From contig JAHDVP010000028.1 of assembly GCA_023384575.1 (NCBI GenBank), positions 29,173 to 72,230 of the forward strand: a stretch of DNA of 43,058 bases. Direction: 5' to 3'. Positions 4,219 through 39,009 of this stretch are shown here, in pieces. A program made the position numbers and the translations under genes. The stretch comes from Acidobacteriota bacterium (GTDB lineage Bacteria; Acidobacteriota; Vicinamibacteria; Vicinamibacterales; JAFNAJ01). Numbering within the stretch: position 1 is the first letter of the stretch; each line of letters starts with the position of its first letter. The notes below the pieces were generated by a model. That model had not been told where the DNA came from, made no database searches, and saw nothing but the letters and a program-made list of their open reading frames with translations.

Positions 4219-5592
4219 ATGCGCACGTTTCTCGCCCTGATCTGCCTCGTTGTCCTCTTCGCCGTCGGCGCGTTCTTCATGGCCGGGCGCGCGGCCGGTC
4301 CGGCCATCGAGGTCGTGCAGCCCGCGGCGCTGCTGGGCCAGTCGGGCACGCTCGAGGTGACGGTGACCACCCCCGGGGGCGCGGTCGACCGCCTCGACAT
4401 CCTGCTGCGCCAGGGCGGGCGCGAGTTCCCCTTGTTCGCGCTCCCCGGCACCGACGAGGGACGGCTCGAGCAGACGGGCGAGGACACCGTGCGCGTGACC
4501 CGGCCCGTCGGGCGCCGCGTGACGCCGGAGCTCGCCGCGGGCGAGGCGGCCATCGTGGTCAGGGCGGCGCGGCCGGTGCTGTTCGGCCTGCGCTCGGCGG
4601 CCACGGAACACGTGCACGAGATCGCCGTCAGGCTCGATCCGCCACGCGTCGCCGTGCTCTCGACGTTCCACTTCGTCAACCACGGCGGCTCCGAGGTCGT
4701 GGTCTACCGCGCGACGCCGGACGATGTGGTGTCGGGCGTGCGTGTGGGCGACCGGGAGTATCCCGGCTTCCCCGCCGCCGGCGCCGGCATCACGGGCGAC
4801 CCGGCGCTGCGCGTCGCTTTCTTCGGCCTGCTGTGGGATCAGGAACTCGACAGCCCGATCGCCGTCTTCGCGCGCGACGCCGCCGGCAACGAGTCGCGCG
4901 CCGCCGTCGACGCGCGGGTCTTTCCGAAGCCGTTCCGCAAGAGCACCATCGCGCTCGACGACCGGTTTCTGTCGCGGGTCGTCCCTGCCATCCTCGAAAA
5001 CTCGCCCGACTTCCGCGTCGATGACGCCGGCGACCTTCTGGCGTCGTACCTCGAGATCAACGGCCGGATGCGCCGCGAGAACAACGCCTTCATCGAGGGA
5101 CTCGCCGCCGGGACGTCGCCCGACGTCCTCTGGCGCGAGCCGTTCCGCCAGCTTGGCAGCTCGAAGGTCGAGGCGAGCTTCGCCGATCAGCGGACCTACA
5201 CCTACCAGGGGCGCGAGGTCGACCAGCAGGTGCACCTCGGCTTCGACCTGGCGGTGACGGCCGCGGTCCCGATTCTGGCCGCCAATCGAGGCCGCGTCGT
5301 CTTCGCCGACTTCCTCGGGATCTACGGCAACTGCGTCGTCGTCGATCATGGCATGGGCGTGCAGTCGCTCTACGCGCACCTGTCGTCCATCGGTGTCGGC
5401 GTCGGGGACGTGGTGGAGCGCGACGATGTGCTCGGGCGGAGCGGGATGACGGGCCTTGCGGGCGGCGACCACCTGCACTTCACGATGCTCGTCGGCGGCC
5501 AGCCCGTCACCCCGGTCGACTGGTGGAGCCGCCAGTGGATCGAGGACCGGATCCTGCGGAAGTTCCGCGAGGCCGGGGCGCCCGGGGTATAA
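4219..5592 (+). CDS. M23 family peptidase (LytM-type), membrane-anchored
   Basis: The protein is about 457 aa. One N-terminal membrane segment or uncleaved signal (residues 1-22, FLALICLVVLFAVGAFF) is followed by a long extracytoplasmic region of beta-rich character, then a C-terminal M23 domain. The zinc site is intact: His339 and Asp343 in HLGFD, His387 in LYAHLS, and His418-x-His420 in GGDHLHF. M23 enzymes cut peptide cross-links of peptidoglycan; with all ligands present this one is probably active rather than a LytM regulator. The start at 4219 follows from the overlapping -10 box; 4207 would add four residues. The stop codon overlaps a TATAAT that probably drives ctaB. Confidence 0.87.
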   Translation: MRTFLALICLVVLFAVGAFFMAGRAAGPAIEVVQPAALLGQSGTLEVTVTTPGGAVDRLDILLRQGGREFPLFALPGTDEGRLEQTGEDTVRVTRPVGRRVTPELAAGEAAIVVRAARPVLFGLRSAATEHVHEIAVRLDPPRVAVLSTFHFVNHGGSEVVVYRATPDDVVSGVRVGDREYPGFPAAGAGITGDPALRVAFFGLLWDQELDSPIAVFARDAAGNESRAAVDARVFPKPFRKSTIALDDRFLSRVVPAILENSPDFRVDDAGDLLASYLEINGRMRRENNAFIEGLAAGTSPDVLWREPFRQLGSSKVEASFADQRTYTYQGREVDQQVHLGFDLAVTAAVPILAANRGRVVFADFLGIYGNCVVVDHGMGVQSLYAHLSSIGVGVGDVVERDDVLGRSGMTGLAGGDHLHFTMLVGGQPVTPVDWWSRQWIEDRILRKFREAGAPGV

Positions 5593-5593
5593 T
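5588..5593 (+). promoter_or_regulatory. -10 box TATAAT upstream of ctaB operon
   Basis: A perfect TATAAT overlaps the TAA stop (5590-5592) of the M23 gene and lies 119 bases before the ctaB start. The leader contains small hairpins, including CCAGC-AGGA-GCTGG. The -35 region is poor. Confidence 0.45.
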
Positions 5594-11230: not shown

Positions 11231-11239
11231 GGCGGTTCG

Positions 11240-11247
11240 ATTATACT
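11240..11247. promoter_or_regulatory. Overlapping divergent -10 boxes (ATTATACT)
   Basis: Read on the minus strand the site gives TATAAT (11245-11240), ending 9 bases before the AmiE/NamZ-like start. On the plus strand it gives TATACT (11242-11247), about 65 bases before the TPR gene. The same octamer occurs in another divergent region at 32842-32849. Confidence 0.55.
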
Positions 11248-11312
11248 GACCGCCGGATTTCGGCGACCGGCCCCGCGCCTGGCGGCCGGCGGCTTCCCGG
11301 GAGGCGCTCAGC

Positions 11313-32305: not shown

Positions 32306-32833
32306 TCACTCGCGGGCCTCGCGCGCCCAGTAGCGCCCGTACTCCTCGAGGAAGGTGAGCGACTCGAACGACGTCATGCGATCGAAGAAGAGGACGCCAT
32401 CGAGATGGTCGGTCTCGTGCTGGACGACGCGCGCCGGGAAGCCATGCAAGGCCATCTCGATCGGCTTCCCGCGCCGGTCGAGTGCGCGCACGACGACGTC
32501 GCGCCAGCGGGGCACGCGCCCCCGGATCTCGGGGATGCTGAGGCAGCCCTCCCAGTCATCGACGCGGGTCTCGCCGGCGGGCTCGATCTCGGGGTTGACG
32601 AACGGCACGATTCGCATGTCGCCGTCGTCGGTATCGATCCCCGCCACGAACAACCGCACGCTCTCGTGCACCTGCGGGCCGGCGAGGCCGATGCCCTCGT
32701 ACTCCTGCATCGTCTCGATCATGTCGTCGATCAGTTTCTGGAATGCGGCGCTGCGCACTTCGGTGGGATCAACGGCCCGGGCGCGCTGCCGCAGCACCGG
32801 GTGACCCATGCGCGCGACCTTCAGAATCGACAT
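32306..32833 (-). CDS. def: Peptide deformylase
   Basis: The protein is 175 aa. All three deformylase motifs are intact: GIGLAGPQ (47-54), EGCLS with metal ligand Cys97, and QHETDHLDG with ligands His139 and His143 and catalytic Glu140. It removes the N-formyl group from new proteins in the cytoplasm. ATG 32833 follows a TATAAT (minus strand 32847-32842) by 8 bases with no Shine-Dalgarno sequence, suggesting a leaderless def-thyX mRNA. Confidence 0.97.
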   Translation of the reverse strand: MSILKVARMGHPVLRQRARAVDPTEVRSAAFQKLIDDMIETMQEYEGIGLAGPQVHESVRLFVAGIDTDDGDMRIVPFVNPEIEPAGETRVDDWEGCLSIPEIRGRVPRWRDVVVRALDRRGKPIEMALHGFPARVVQHETDHLDGVLFFDRMTSFESLTFLEEYGRYWAREARE

Positions 32834-32841
32834 GATCCGCC

Positions 32842-32849
32842 ATTATACT
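32842..32849. promoter_or_regulatory. Overlapping divergent -10 boxes (ATTATACT)
   Basis: The minus strand reads TATAAT ending 8 bases before the def start; the plus strand reads TATACT (32844-32849), 39 bases before the NUDIX start. It is identical to the octamer at 11240-11247, also between divergent genes. Confidence 0.6.
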
Positions 32850-32888: not shown

Positions 32889-33428
32889 ATGACGCTCGAG
32901 ATCCCTAACGCCGTGTACCGGTTCTGCCCTGCGTGCGGCGGGCCCCTCGCCGTACGGTCGCTCAAGGCGGGCGATCCGGATCGCCTCGTCTGCGGCCGAT
33001 GCGGCTTCGTCTTCTACCTCGATCCGAAGGTCGCCGTGGGTGCGATCATTCGCAACGAAGAGGGGCGCGTGGTGCTGGTCCGTCGGGCCATCGAGCCGGG
33101 CTACGGGCTGTGGACGTTCCCGGGCGGCTACGTCGATCGTGGCGAACCGCTCGAGACGGCGGCCCGGCGCGAGGCCCTAGAGGAATGCGGCCTCGTGATT
33201 CGCCTCGACGGCCTCGTCAACGTCTACTCGTACGCGGGTCGCGCGCCCATCATCGTCGTCTACGCGGCCACCGCGACTGCGGGTGTGCTCGCCCCGGACG
33301 AGGAGGGGCTCGAGGCCCGGTACTTCGAACCGTCGCGTCTGCCCTGGGACGACCTGGCGTTTCGCAGCGTGCGCGACGCGTTCACCGACTACCTCGCCGG
33401 CCACCTCTACCCGCCTGGGATTCGATGA
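32889..33428 (+). CDS. NUDIX hydrolase with N-terminal zinc ribbon
   Basis: The protein is 179 aa. A zinc ribbon (FCPACGG and VCGRCGF, two CxxC pairs within residues 10-40) precedes a NUDIX domain with an intact box GGYVDRGEPLETAARREALEECGL, matching Gx5Ex7REUxEExGU. This architecture occurs in NudC-like NAD pyrophosphatases and in ADP-ribose or nucleotide hydrolases; the SQPWPFPxS motif of NudC is not seen, so the substrate is open. ATG 32889 is chosen over an upstream in-frame start (32808) that would overlap the divergent promoter and def. Confidence 0.9.
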   Translation: MTLEIPNAVYRFCPACGGPLAVRSLKAGDPDRLVCGRCGFVFYLDPKVAVGAIIRNEEGRVVLVRRAIEPGYGLWTFPGGYVDRGEPLETAARREALEECGLVIRLDGLVNVYSYAGRAPIIVVYAATATAGVLAPDEEGLEARYFEPSRLPWDDLAFRSVRDAFTDYLAGHLYPPGIR

Positions 33429-36219: not shown

Positions 36220-37607
36220 GGGCCGAACAGGGGACCCGACACGTTGATGCCCGCGTCGGCCAGCGCGGCCAGGGCCGCGAGTCGGCCGGCCACGACCGCG
36301 CTCTCGAGCGTGGCCGGGAGGCCCGTGTCGACCCAGTCGCTCGCGAGGTAGAGGCCCTCCACGCTCGTCCGCACTCCGGGCCGCTCGGGCTGGCCCGGCG
36401 CGAGCGAGAACGTTGCGTTGGGCTCGCGGACGACGACGGCGCGCTCGAGGCGGGCACGCCTGGCCGCGGGCAACGCGCCCACCACCTCGTCGAGCGCAAG
36501 CGACACCACCGCGTCGTTCGACGCTCGCAGGATGTCCTGAGCGCCGCTCGACACGAGCGAGAGGTGCGACGCGCGCCCCCCGCCGAAGATGCGCTGCTTG
36601 TCGAACACCCACTGCATCCGGCGGCCCGGCAGGCCGACGAACGGCTCGTCGAGCACCGGGCGATCGAACCACAGGTTCACGGTGACGATGGGAGAGGCCG
36701 CCGTCGCCGACGCGCGGCGCACGAGATCGGCCACGGCCGGGCCTGCGTCGCGCAGGACCGACGGCAACGAGAACCACCCCGTGGCCACCACCACCTGCGG
36801 CGCCGCCACCCGCTCGCCCCGCACGTCGATGCCGGCCAGGCGTTCACCGTCGAAGACGACGTGGGCCAGGGCGTTCGCGCGGACCTCGCCGCCGAGACGT
36901 TCGATCTCGGCACGGGCCGGCTCGGCGTACATCTCGTCGAGCGGCACCCGGGGAAGCACGACCGCGGCGTCGGCAGGATCCGGGCCGAAGACGCCGGCCA
37001 GGACCGGCAGGAACGCCGAGGCGCTGGCCACGCGGACGTCCTGGTTCAACGCCGCGAGGGCCAGCGGCTCCCAGAGCATCGCCTGCAGTTGCTCGCCCTG
37101 GCCGTGCGCGGCCAGCCACTGCGCGACCGTCTGGTCCGCGGGAGCCATCGCGGCCGCCTCGTGCGGCGCACGACCCCGTGCCGACAGGAGCACGCGCGCC
37201 AGCCGGAACACGCTCAGGCGGTCGCGGAGCGACAGCCCGCGCCAGCGCAGCACGCCCGCCACGAGGTGCCAGGGTGATGGCAGCGGTGGACAGTGCAGAT
37301 GCGACCACTGCCCTGCCGCGTCGACGAACGAGGCGTCGAGCGATGCGGCGCGTTCGACGCGACCTCCCGCGCCGAGGGCATCGAGCCACCTGAGGGTCTC
37401 GTGGTAGCACCCGAGCAGCACGTGCTGACCGTTGTCGACGAGCTCGCCGGTGGCGCGATCGACAAACGACGTCGCCCGTCCACCCAGCTTGCCGCGGGCC
37501 TCGAGCACGAGGACACGTGCGCCGTGCCCTGCGAGGCCGACGGCTGCGGTCAAACCGGCGCAGCCCGCGCCGATGACGACCACGTCGTGCCGCGTCGTCG
37601 CGGTCAC
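36216..37607 (-). CDS. hpnE: Hydroxysqualene dehydroxylase
   Basis: The protein is 463 aa. The FAD-binding motif VVVIGAGCAGLTAAVGLAGHGARVLVLEA (about 8-36) and GGRATSFVD are typical of this amine-oxidase-like desaturase family. DNGQHVLLGCYHETLRWLDALG, SLVSSGAQDIL and GLYLASDWVDTGLPATLESAVVAGRLAA are family-level hallmarks. In the HpnCDE route, HpnE reduces hydroxysqualene to squalene. GTG 37607 overlaps the hpnD stop (GTGA), and its own stop overlaps thiI, so hpnD-hpnE-thiI are probably co-translated. Confidence 0.94.
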   Translation of the reverse strand: MTATTRHDVVVIGAGCAGLTAAVGLAGHGARVLVLEARGKLGGRATSFVDRATGELVDNGQHVLLGCYHETLRWLDALGAGGRVERAASLDASFVDAAGQWSHLHCPPLPSPWHLVAGVLRWRGLSLRDRLSVFRLARVLLSARGRAPHEAAAMAPADQTVAQWLAAHGQGEQLQAMLWEPLALAALNQDVRVASASAFLPVLAGVFGPDPADAAVVLPRVPLDEMYAEPARAEIERLGGEVRANALAHVVFDGERLAGIDVRGERVAAPQVVVATGWFSLPSVLRDAGPAVADLVRRASATAASPIVTVNLWFDRPVLDEPFVGLPGRRMQWVFDKQRIFGGGRASHLSLVSSGAQDILRASNDAVVSLALDEVVGALPAARRARLERAVVVREPNATFSLAPGQPERPGVRTSVEGLYLASDWVDTGLPATLESAVVAGRLAALAALADAGINVSGPLFGP

Positions 37608-38428
37608 CGCCGTCCCGCCATCACCCGCGCCCAGGTCGACACGGCAATCAGCGCCCGGCGCGGGCGGGGCACCCGCACGGTCTCCGAAAAGACGTCGAAG
37701 TGCCTGGCTTCGATGCGGTCGAGGATGGCGCGGTAGATGGCGCCCATGATCTCGGCGGCCACGAGTCGGCGGGCGTCGGCGCGCGGCAGGGCGGCCCGCG
37801 CCTCGGCGTAGAAGCGGCGCGCCCGCGCGGCCTGGTGGGCGAGCAGGCCGACGACAGGGGCCGTGGTCCGGCCGTCGCGCAGGTCCTGTTCGGTGCAGCC
37901 GAAGCGCGAGAGCTCCTCGATGGGGATGTACAGCCGGTTGCGCGCCAGGTCGACCGGCACGTCGCGCAGGATGTTGGTGAGCTGCAGGGCCAGCCCCAGG
38001 CGCTCGGCGTAGGTGCCGGCTTCGGCCGTCCGCGCGCCGAAGATGGCGACCGAGATCAGCCCCACCGTCGAGGCCACGCGGTAACAGTACTCCCGCAGGT
38101 CGTCGAACGTCGGGTAACGACGCGGCGTGACGTCCATGGCCACGCCGTCGATGAGGTCGTCGAACGGCCGCCGTGGCAAGCCGAACTGCCCGACGAGGGG
38201 CTCGAGCGCCCGCCCCTGGGGTGAGTGCGGCTGGCCGCCCGCGAAGCACGCCTCGACCTCGCGGCGCCAGAACGACAGGGCGCTCTCGACATCCGGCCCG
38301 CCCGACGCAGGCGCCTCGTCGACGGCGTCGTCCACGGCTCGGCAGAAATCCCAGACGGCGACGATCGCCCGCCGCCGGCGTGGCGGAAGCACGAGGAACG
38401 AGTAGTAGAAGTTCGTGTCGCGAGACAT
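37604..38428 (-). CDS. hpnD: Presqualene diphosphate synthase
   Basis: The protein is 274 aa. The start MSRDTNFYYSFLVLPPRRR is typical. The two Asp-rich motifs of trans-isoprenyl head-to-head synthases are DFCRAVDDAVDE (about 29-40) and LTNILRDVPVDLARNRLYIP. It joins two farnesyl diphosphates to presqualene diphosphate. ATG 38428 is chosen; upstream extension of the frame is antisense to the adenosyltransferase gene. TATAGA at 38461-38456 may be its -10, overlapping the TATAAT of the divergent gene. Confidence 0.94.
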   Translation of the reverse strand: MSRDTNFYYSFLVLPPRRRRAIVAVWDFCRAVDDAVDEAPASGGPDVESALSFWRREVEACFAGGQPHSPQGRALEPLVGQFGLPRRPFDDLIDGVAMDVTPRRYPTFDDLREYCYRVASTVGLISVAIFGARTAEAGTYAERLGLALQLTNILRDVPVDLARNRLYIPIEELSRFGCTEQDLRDGRTTAPVVGLLAHQAARARRFYAEARAALPRADARRLVAAEIMGAIYRAILDRIEARHFDVFSETVRVPRPRRALIAVSTWARVMAGRR

Positions 38429-38455
38429 GGCCACCGAGGCGCTCGAAGACGTGAG

Positions 38456-38463
38456 TCTATAAT
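38456..38463. promoter_or_regulatory. -10 TATAAT (plus) overlapping TATAGA (minus) between divergent genes
   Basis: On the plus strand TATAAT (38458-38463) ends six bases before GTG 38470, implying a leaderless adenosyltransferase mRNA. On the minus strand TATAGA lies about 28 bases before hpnD. Both depend on the same few bases. Confidence 0.6.
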
Positions 38464-38469
38464 CGTTAC

Positions 38470-39009
38470 GTGAAAATCTACACTCGGACCGGCGACAGGG
38501 GCGAAACCGGTCTCTTCGACGGCACGCGTGTCTCGAAGGCCGATCTGCGCGTCGACGCCTACGGCGAGGTCGACGAGCTGAACGCTGCACTCGGCATGGT
38601 GCGGGCGGCGGGGGTCGATGAGGAGATCGATGGTCTGATTGCAGGCCTGCAGCGCGATCTGCACGCCCTGGGTGCTCGCCTCGCCGATCCGGAGCACCGC
38701 ATCGCGTCACGGGTCGAGAAGGCCGCACTCGGCGAGCAGGCCGTCGCGCGACTCGAAGCGACGATCGACCGGCTCGAGACGGATCTGCCGCCGCTCAGGC
38801 GGTTCATCCTGGCCGGCGGCAGTCAGGCCGGCGCCGCGCTGCACCTCGCGCGAACGATCTGCCGGCGCGCCGAGCGCCGCATCGTCGGTCTCGGGCCGGA
38901 GGCCGTCGACGCGGACGTGATCACCTACGTGAACCGCCTGTCCGACCTGCTCTTCGTGCTGGCCCGGACGGTCAACCACCGCGCCGGGCTCCCGGAGACC
39001 GAGTGGTAG
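38470..39009 (+). CDS. pduO: Cob(I)alamin adenosyltransferase, PduO type
   Basis: The protein is 179 aa. The ATP-binding N-terminus YTRTGDRGETGLFDG (about 4-18), DAYGEVDELNAALG and FILAGGSQAGAALHLARTICRRAER are the three signature regions of the PduO/MMAB family. It adenosylates cob(I)alamin to coenzyme B12. GTG 38470 is directly preceded by a -10 box with no Shine-Dalgarno sequence. It overlaps hpnC by 7 bases. Confidence 0.96.
   Translation: MKIYTRTGDRGETGLFDGTRVSKADLRVDAYGEVDELNAALGMVRAAGVDEEIDGLIAGLQRDLHALGARLADPEHRIASRVEKAALGEQAVARLEATIDRLETDLPPLRRFILAGGSQAGAALHLARTICRRAERRIVGLGPEAVDADVITYVNRLSDLLFVLARTVNHRAGLPETEW

Follow-up and report, generated by a model that had tools for sequence, protein, structure and literature searches.

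The octamer ATTATACT at positions 11240–11247 of the window (the whole 43,058-nucleotide stretch of DNA that was analysed) probably serves as the core of a bidirectional housekeeping promoter, a reading to which we assign a probability of about 0.78. It lies between a gene carrying a NamZ domain and a divergent TPR gene, presenting TATAAT to the former and TATACT to the latter. The octamer most likely switches on both genes: related loci that have the opposite gene keep the bases that make it symmetric, and loci that do not have it mostly lack them. The left-hand gene, called AmiE/NamZ-like in a sequence-only reading of this DNA, is correctly identified as a serine beta-lactamase-family/NamZ fusion of 809 residues. 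Features of this site (site 1) and of two further candidate sites are collected in Table 1.

Table 1. Coordinates of the promoter elements and flanking genes in the window.
Feature	Position	Strand	Remark
Symmetric octamer ATTATACT (minus strand AGTATAAT)	11240..11247	both	site 1; putative shared core of two divergent promoters
-10 TATAAT of beta-lactamase/NamZ gene	11240..11245	-	9 nt before ATG; predicted leader ~3 nt
-10 TATACT of TPR gene	11242..11247	+	conserved order-wide at TPR-bearing loci
Serine beta-lactamase-family/NamZ (exo-N-acetylmuramidase) fusion gene, 809 aa	8801..11230	-	
Shine-Dalgarno-like GGGAGG of TPR gene	11299..11304	+	from sequence
CarboxypepD_reg/TPR repeat protein gene, 316 aa	11313..12263	+	
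Second ATTATACT, between def and NUDIX	32842..32849	both	site 2; def-side TATAAT deeply conserved, NUDIX-side half not generally
Peptide deformylase (def)	32306..32833	-	start codon 8 nt past TATAAT
NUDIX hydrolase	32889..33428	+	ATG 32889 is the first in-frame start after the element
AGTCTATAAT	38454..38463	both	site 3; forward TATAAT 38458-38463 (pduO) and reverse TAGACT 38459-38454 (hpnD)
Cobalamin adenosyltransferase (pduO type)	38470..39009	+	GTG 6 nt past TATAAT; predicted fully leaderless
Squalene/phytoene synthase family gene (hpnD-like)	37604..38428	-	alternative GTG start 38434

The genome assembly, 5.89 Mb with ~70% G+C, belongs to the Vicinamibacterales (Acidobacteriota). The sequence-only reading had described the octamer correctly, and both of its positions, between NamZ and TPR and between def and NUDIX (32842–32849), are confirmed as the only ones in the window. 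Dinucleotide shuffling predicts 0.02 copies there and no shuffle reached two; genome-wide, 10 copies are found and its reversed control occurs once. These counts exclude chance. The hexamer TATAAT is itself rare in this genome (110 copies; 18 for the control) and is present four times in the window against 0.16 expected. The fourth window copy (5588–5593) shares bases with the stop codon of the gene before it and would leave the next gene (5713) with a leader exceeding 100 nt.

The predicted start sites of site 1 lie 21 bp apart, at 11233 on the minus strand and at 11254 on the plus strand. The TPR gene is leadered, with ~59 nt predicted and a Shine-Dalgarno GGGAGG. Conservation was assessed at beta-lactamase/NamZ loci from 40 related genomes and GTDB contigs, at which the -10 was picked by its forward half alone, blind to the reverse half. 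The dinucleotide AG, which creates TATACT toward the TPR gene, precedes the -10 in 27/31 loci with a divergent TPR gene and in 2/14 without (p = 5e-6). At loci with a strict TATAAT the figures are 17/17 and 1/7 (p = 5e-5). The two AG bases carry 1.34 bits of information each and most flanking positions carry less than 0.5 bits; the forward half drifts (TATAAT, TATATT, TATAGT) and the reverse TATACT stays constant. The octamer is thus far better conserved than its flanks, the check that the sequence-only reading had proposed, and its reverse half tracks the divergent gene. Four TPR-bearing loci (L041, L047, L238 and L267) miss the element. L039, an exception without the TPR gene, carries another divergent gene (judged sulfatase-like by eye), whose GTG is 6 nt from the reverse TATACT. 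Phylogenetically independent contrasts on the NamZ tree were few and below significance, with four in the predicted direction, none opposite and two ties. Taken from sequence comparison, the case for site 1 as a shared bidirectional promoter is strongly supported. The relatives compared are soil and water bacteria. One locus, L255, contains CAGTATATATTGAATCC twice, at either end of a stretch separating TPR and NamZ (~421 and 26 nt before the region of NamZ homology), an arrangement that resembles a duplication of the shared promoter.

The same data bear on an alternative account, in which NamZ, def and pduO have one-way leaderless promoters and the reverse match is an accident of the self-complementary TATA. 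TATA is palindromic, so that any TATAAT with an A two bases upstream yields a reverse TANNNT, and the account fits both the def site, whose partner is unconserved, and most leaderless-type -10s of the genome. We consider it unlikely for site 1, where the supposedly accidental bases exceed the forward half in conservation and follow the divergent gene. Moreover, AG or AT before TATAAT is rare at co-directional genes (1/43, among the matches listed), and a palindrome at NagZ loci is retained across families. A much less probable proposal is that AG belongs to an extended -10 of the forward promoter and not to a reverse -10. TATAAT often has a G directly before it, a feature of extended or -13G promoters (about half of the co-directional sites listed), but co-directional promoters show no enrichment of A at the second base upstream (12%, among the matches listed), and few NamZ loci lacking the TPR gene carry AG (1/7).

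No conserved -35 was seen at the NamZ loci across the order, and no -35 consensus, at any spacer, was seen at 44 divergent and 46 co-directional TATAAT promoters of G000. With no detectable -35, direction would be unfixed and the -10 alone would carry both promoters. Under the bidirectional reading, RNA polymerase with the housekeeping sigma factor would be able to bind the TATA-centred element facing either gene. In the TATAAT orientation transcription would start ~3 nt before the beta-lactamase/NamZ start codon, producing an essentially leaderless mRNA to be translated as such; in the TATACT orientation the TPR mRNA would start, with its ribosome-binding site. As both orientations occupy the same base pairs, only one should be possible at a time, by analogy with the model in PMC12825309.

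The leaderless component of this scheme is consistent with a signal seen more widely. TANNNT before called starts in the genome peaks at a gap of 6–10 nt, where it is found at 42/316 divergent starts against 10–17 in bins of the same width further upstream, and most def and pduO orthologues (up to 30 relatives) have TATAAT 6–9 nt before the start. At sites 1 to 3 the full-consensus TATAAT always faces the leaderless-type gene. The gaps to the NamZ, def and pduO starts are 9, 8 and 6 nt, within the 6–10 nt expected of leaderless genes and conserved in the def and pduO orthologues, and the opposite genes (TPR, NUDIX and hpnD) are leadered by their predicted start sites. The spacing thus fits one near-leaderless transcript per site, with a predicted leader of 0–3 nt.

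Site 2 carries the same octamer, again with predicted start sites 21 bp apart. The predicted +1 of def is 32835, leaving a leader of 2 nt, and that of NUDIX leaves ~33 nt to ATG 32889. Any reverse partner is found at 11/18 def loci with a divergent NUDIX gene and at 2/6 without (p = 0.36). The 21-bp partner is present at 4/18 of the former, and the identity of the partner varies (AG in four, an A four bases upstream in seven). Double use at def/NUDIX is possible and unproven on these counts and this variability. The comparison makes a weak case for a shared promoter, since the def TATAAT is conserved and its symmetric partner is not; the element would drive def, and NUDIX would perhaps be served in some lineages only.

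At the pduO/hpnD site the sequence-only reading had proposed a TATAAT/TATAGA overlap at 38456–38463, where TCTATAAT is located. Its TATAAT and the position stand; the reverse TATAGA lacks the essential -7T, and TAGACT is preferred for that reason. TATAAT and TAGACT overlap in the TA dinucleotide only (ANNNTANNNT), with predicted start sites 23 bp apart. The predicted +1 of pduO is 38470, giving a leader of 0 nt, and hpnD has a predicted leader of ~13–19 nt. An overlapping reverse partner occurs at 4/4 pduO loci with divergent hpnD versus 4/20 with other upstream genes (p = 0.007), and all four of the former come from one family. These counts are suggestive of a double promoter with a reverse TAGACT and the 23-bp geometry. 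The earlier idea of one element driving unrelated gene pairs is partly supported: it agrees with the data at site 1, is not specifically supported at site 2, and applies to site 3 only via TAGACT.

At sites 1, 2 and 3 overlapping opposite-strand -10s give spacings of 21, 21 and 23 bp, inside the 7–25 bp allowed for bidirectional promoters. The octamer is ANTATANT and not TANNNTA; it lacks the reciprocal -11A/-7T pairing of the commonest, 18-bp class and belongs to another spacing class. The reverse half appears to be kept by selection at site 1 (17/17 versus 1/7) and in the NagZ palindrome (20/28), and does not appear to be so at def/NUDIX.

The association of symmetry with divergent genes was also examined genome-wide, the survey of divergent regions covering 1.63 Mb of the 5.9 Mb. 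The 101 distinct TATAAT sites classified came mainly from the matches listed (the first 100 of 110). A reverse TATACT or TATAAT accompanies TATAAT in 11/44 divergent pairs and in 1/43 co-directional ones among the matches listed; with palindromes counted once the numbers are 9/42 and 1/43 (p = 0.007, again among the matches listed). When leaderless-type TANNNT is taken as the anchor and any 18-, 21- or 23-bp geometry is accepted, the difference is borderline (20/59 versus 10/55, p = 0.045). Most promoters in the genome are one-way, and symmetric ones are a minority of the leaderless-type -10s. Raw counts in divergent regions were set aside. TANNNTA (18 bp) occurs 32 times against 7.7 in shuffled sequence and ANNNTANNNT (23 bp) 43 times against 16.5, excesses that are partly trivial because the TA of a one-way -10 creates chance partners and divergent regions carry -10s on both strands; the antisense control for these counts draws on those symmetric sites again and gives no independent check. 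We therefore rely on the anchored tests, which are weaker genome-wide. Genome G006 was discarded as a replicate: its TATAAT excess is smaller (67 versus 29 for the control), and the two palindromes examined do not lie between close start codons.

Outside the window, a GHMP kinase/NagZ pair is a clearer case of a shared core than the window sites. At G000:C22:42483 the palindrome ATTATAAT separates a GHMP kinase gene (GTG, 6 nt) from a gene for a GH3/NagZ-type hydrolase (ATG, 9 nt); the two start codons in G000 are 23 bp apart around CATTATAATG (L197:2994-3018). The start codons are probably right, as both proteins have conserved N-termini (V-x-x-x-SSAPTRID and M-S-x-x-x-LRR-x-x-G-x-L). The palindrome is retained in 20/28 relatives that keep the divergent pair, across families, and is missing in both loci without a detected NagZ neighbour. 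In eleven loci a single shared element provides both genes with a TATAAT at leaderless distance, and the starts are 19–26 bp apart. In L322 and L327 the palindrome is present and the NagZ GTG lies 13 nt away; in several palindrome-bearing loci (e.g. L320, L333, L334 and L342) the NagZ start is 66–91 bp away and would have a leader. At least six loci that have no palindrome (L317, L323, L330, L335, L340 and L341) have starts 31–90 bp apart and a separate -10 for each gene at 4–10 nt. It seems rather likely that in this order one long-kept palindromic TATAAT core with no -35 drives two unrelated divergent protein genes with starts ~19–27 bp apart. The whole intergenic region would then amount to one -10, both mRNAs would be leaderless or nearly so, and a pair that is pulled apart would acquire two separate leaderless promoters.

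Other pairs show related arrangements. For class I fumarase, ATTATACT is kept in many relatives, beside a methyltransferase-type or another divergent gene; at L193:5474-5495 (G000:C4 near 112587) the fumarase and the methyltransferase gene each start 6 nt from ATTATACT. At L225:2989-3014 (G000:C55), genes for a metallo-beta-lactamase-fold and a receiver-domain protein start 5 and 11 nt from the sides of ATTATAGA. A DUF255/GAF palindrome (C51:11077) was rejected as a candidate, the same partner not being kept in relatives. The range of genes also argues against the octamer being an operator for a conserved regulator and not a promoter core. Its shortness, conservation and near-palindromic form, and its place between divergent genes, would suit an operator, but the element matches the -10 consensus exactly, varies only as a -10 tolerates, and sits at promoter distance from the starts of unrelated genes (deformylase, cobalamin adenosyltransferase, kinase and fumarase); an operator is accordingly a very improbable reading.

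Bidirectional -10 elements and leaderless genes in Acidobacteria are already known (PMC10268837, PMC12825309, PMC3160421). Bidirectional promoters arising from -10 symmetry (Warman et al. 2021), as relayed in PMC10268837 and PMC12825309, have start sites 7–25 bp apart. Among them a spacing of 18 bp, in which -11A and -7T are reciprocally paired, is the commonest, and the divergent RNA is often antisense and non-coding. The spacing of 23 bp is one published optimum and is common in E. coli (PMC12825309). The present sites resemble that system in that the predicted divergent starts share one -10 region, at 21 and 23 bp. They differ from it in that the conserved layout is TATA-centred with 21 bp and not the commonest 18 bp, conserved protein genes lie on both sides, and throughout the order the symmetry is retained together with the partner gene. 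Genes with a leaderless TA-like signal (TANNNT) make up 13.3% on average in Acidobacteria (Zheng et al. 2011, PMC3160421), a -10-like signal ~12 bp before the start codon predicting the absence of a leader. The genes described here likewise have a -10-like signal close before the start, in a phylum included in that survey. Unlike those genes, and despite the high G+C of ~70%, they carry a full TATAAT and not a bare TANNNT; some pairs would have one element for the leaderless starts of both strands. Neither 'divergent' nor 'bidirectional' occurs in PMC3160421. A literature search found no description of conserved double-leaderless divergent pairs on one -10, which is weak evidence of novelty as most subscription papers lay outside it. 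Three features appear to be new: conservation through the order that depends on the partner gene, a geometry of 21 bp, and pairs in which both genes would be leaderless.

Bacterial bidirectional promoters are often regarded as a side effect of -10 symmetry, with non-coding antisense RNA as the product. Here the symmetry accompanies the second gene and is seldom found where that gene is missing, and we argue from this that selection can maintain it for two mRNAs. The double-leaderless pairs would be near-minimal divergent promoters, and may offer a clean natural system for polymerase exclusion and for the balance between two genes.
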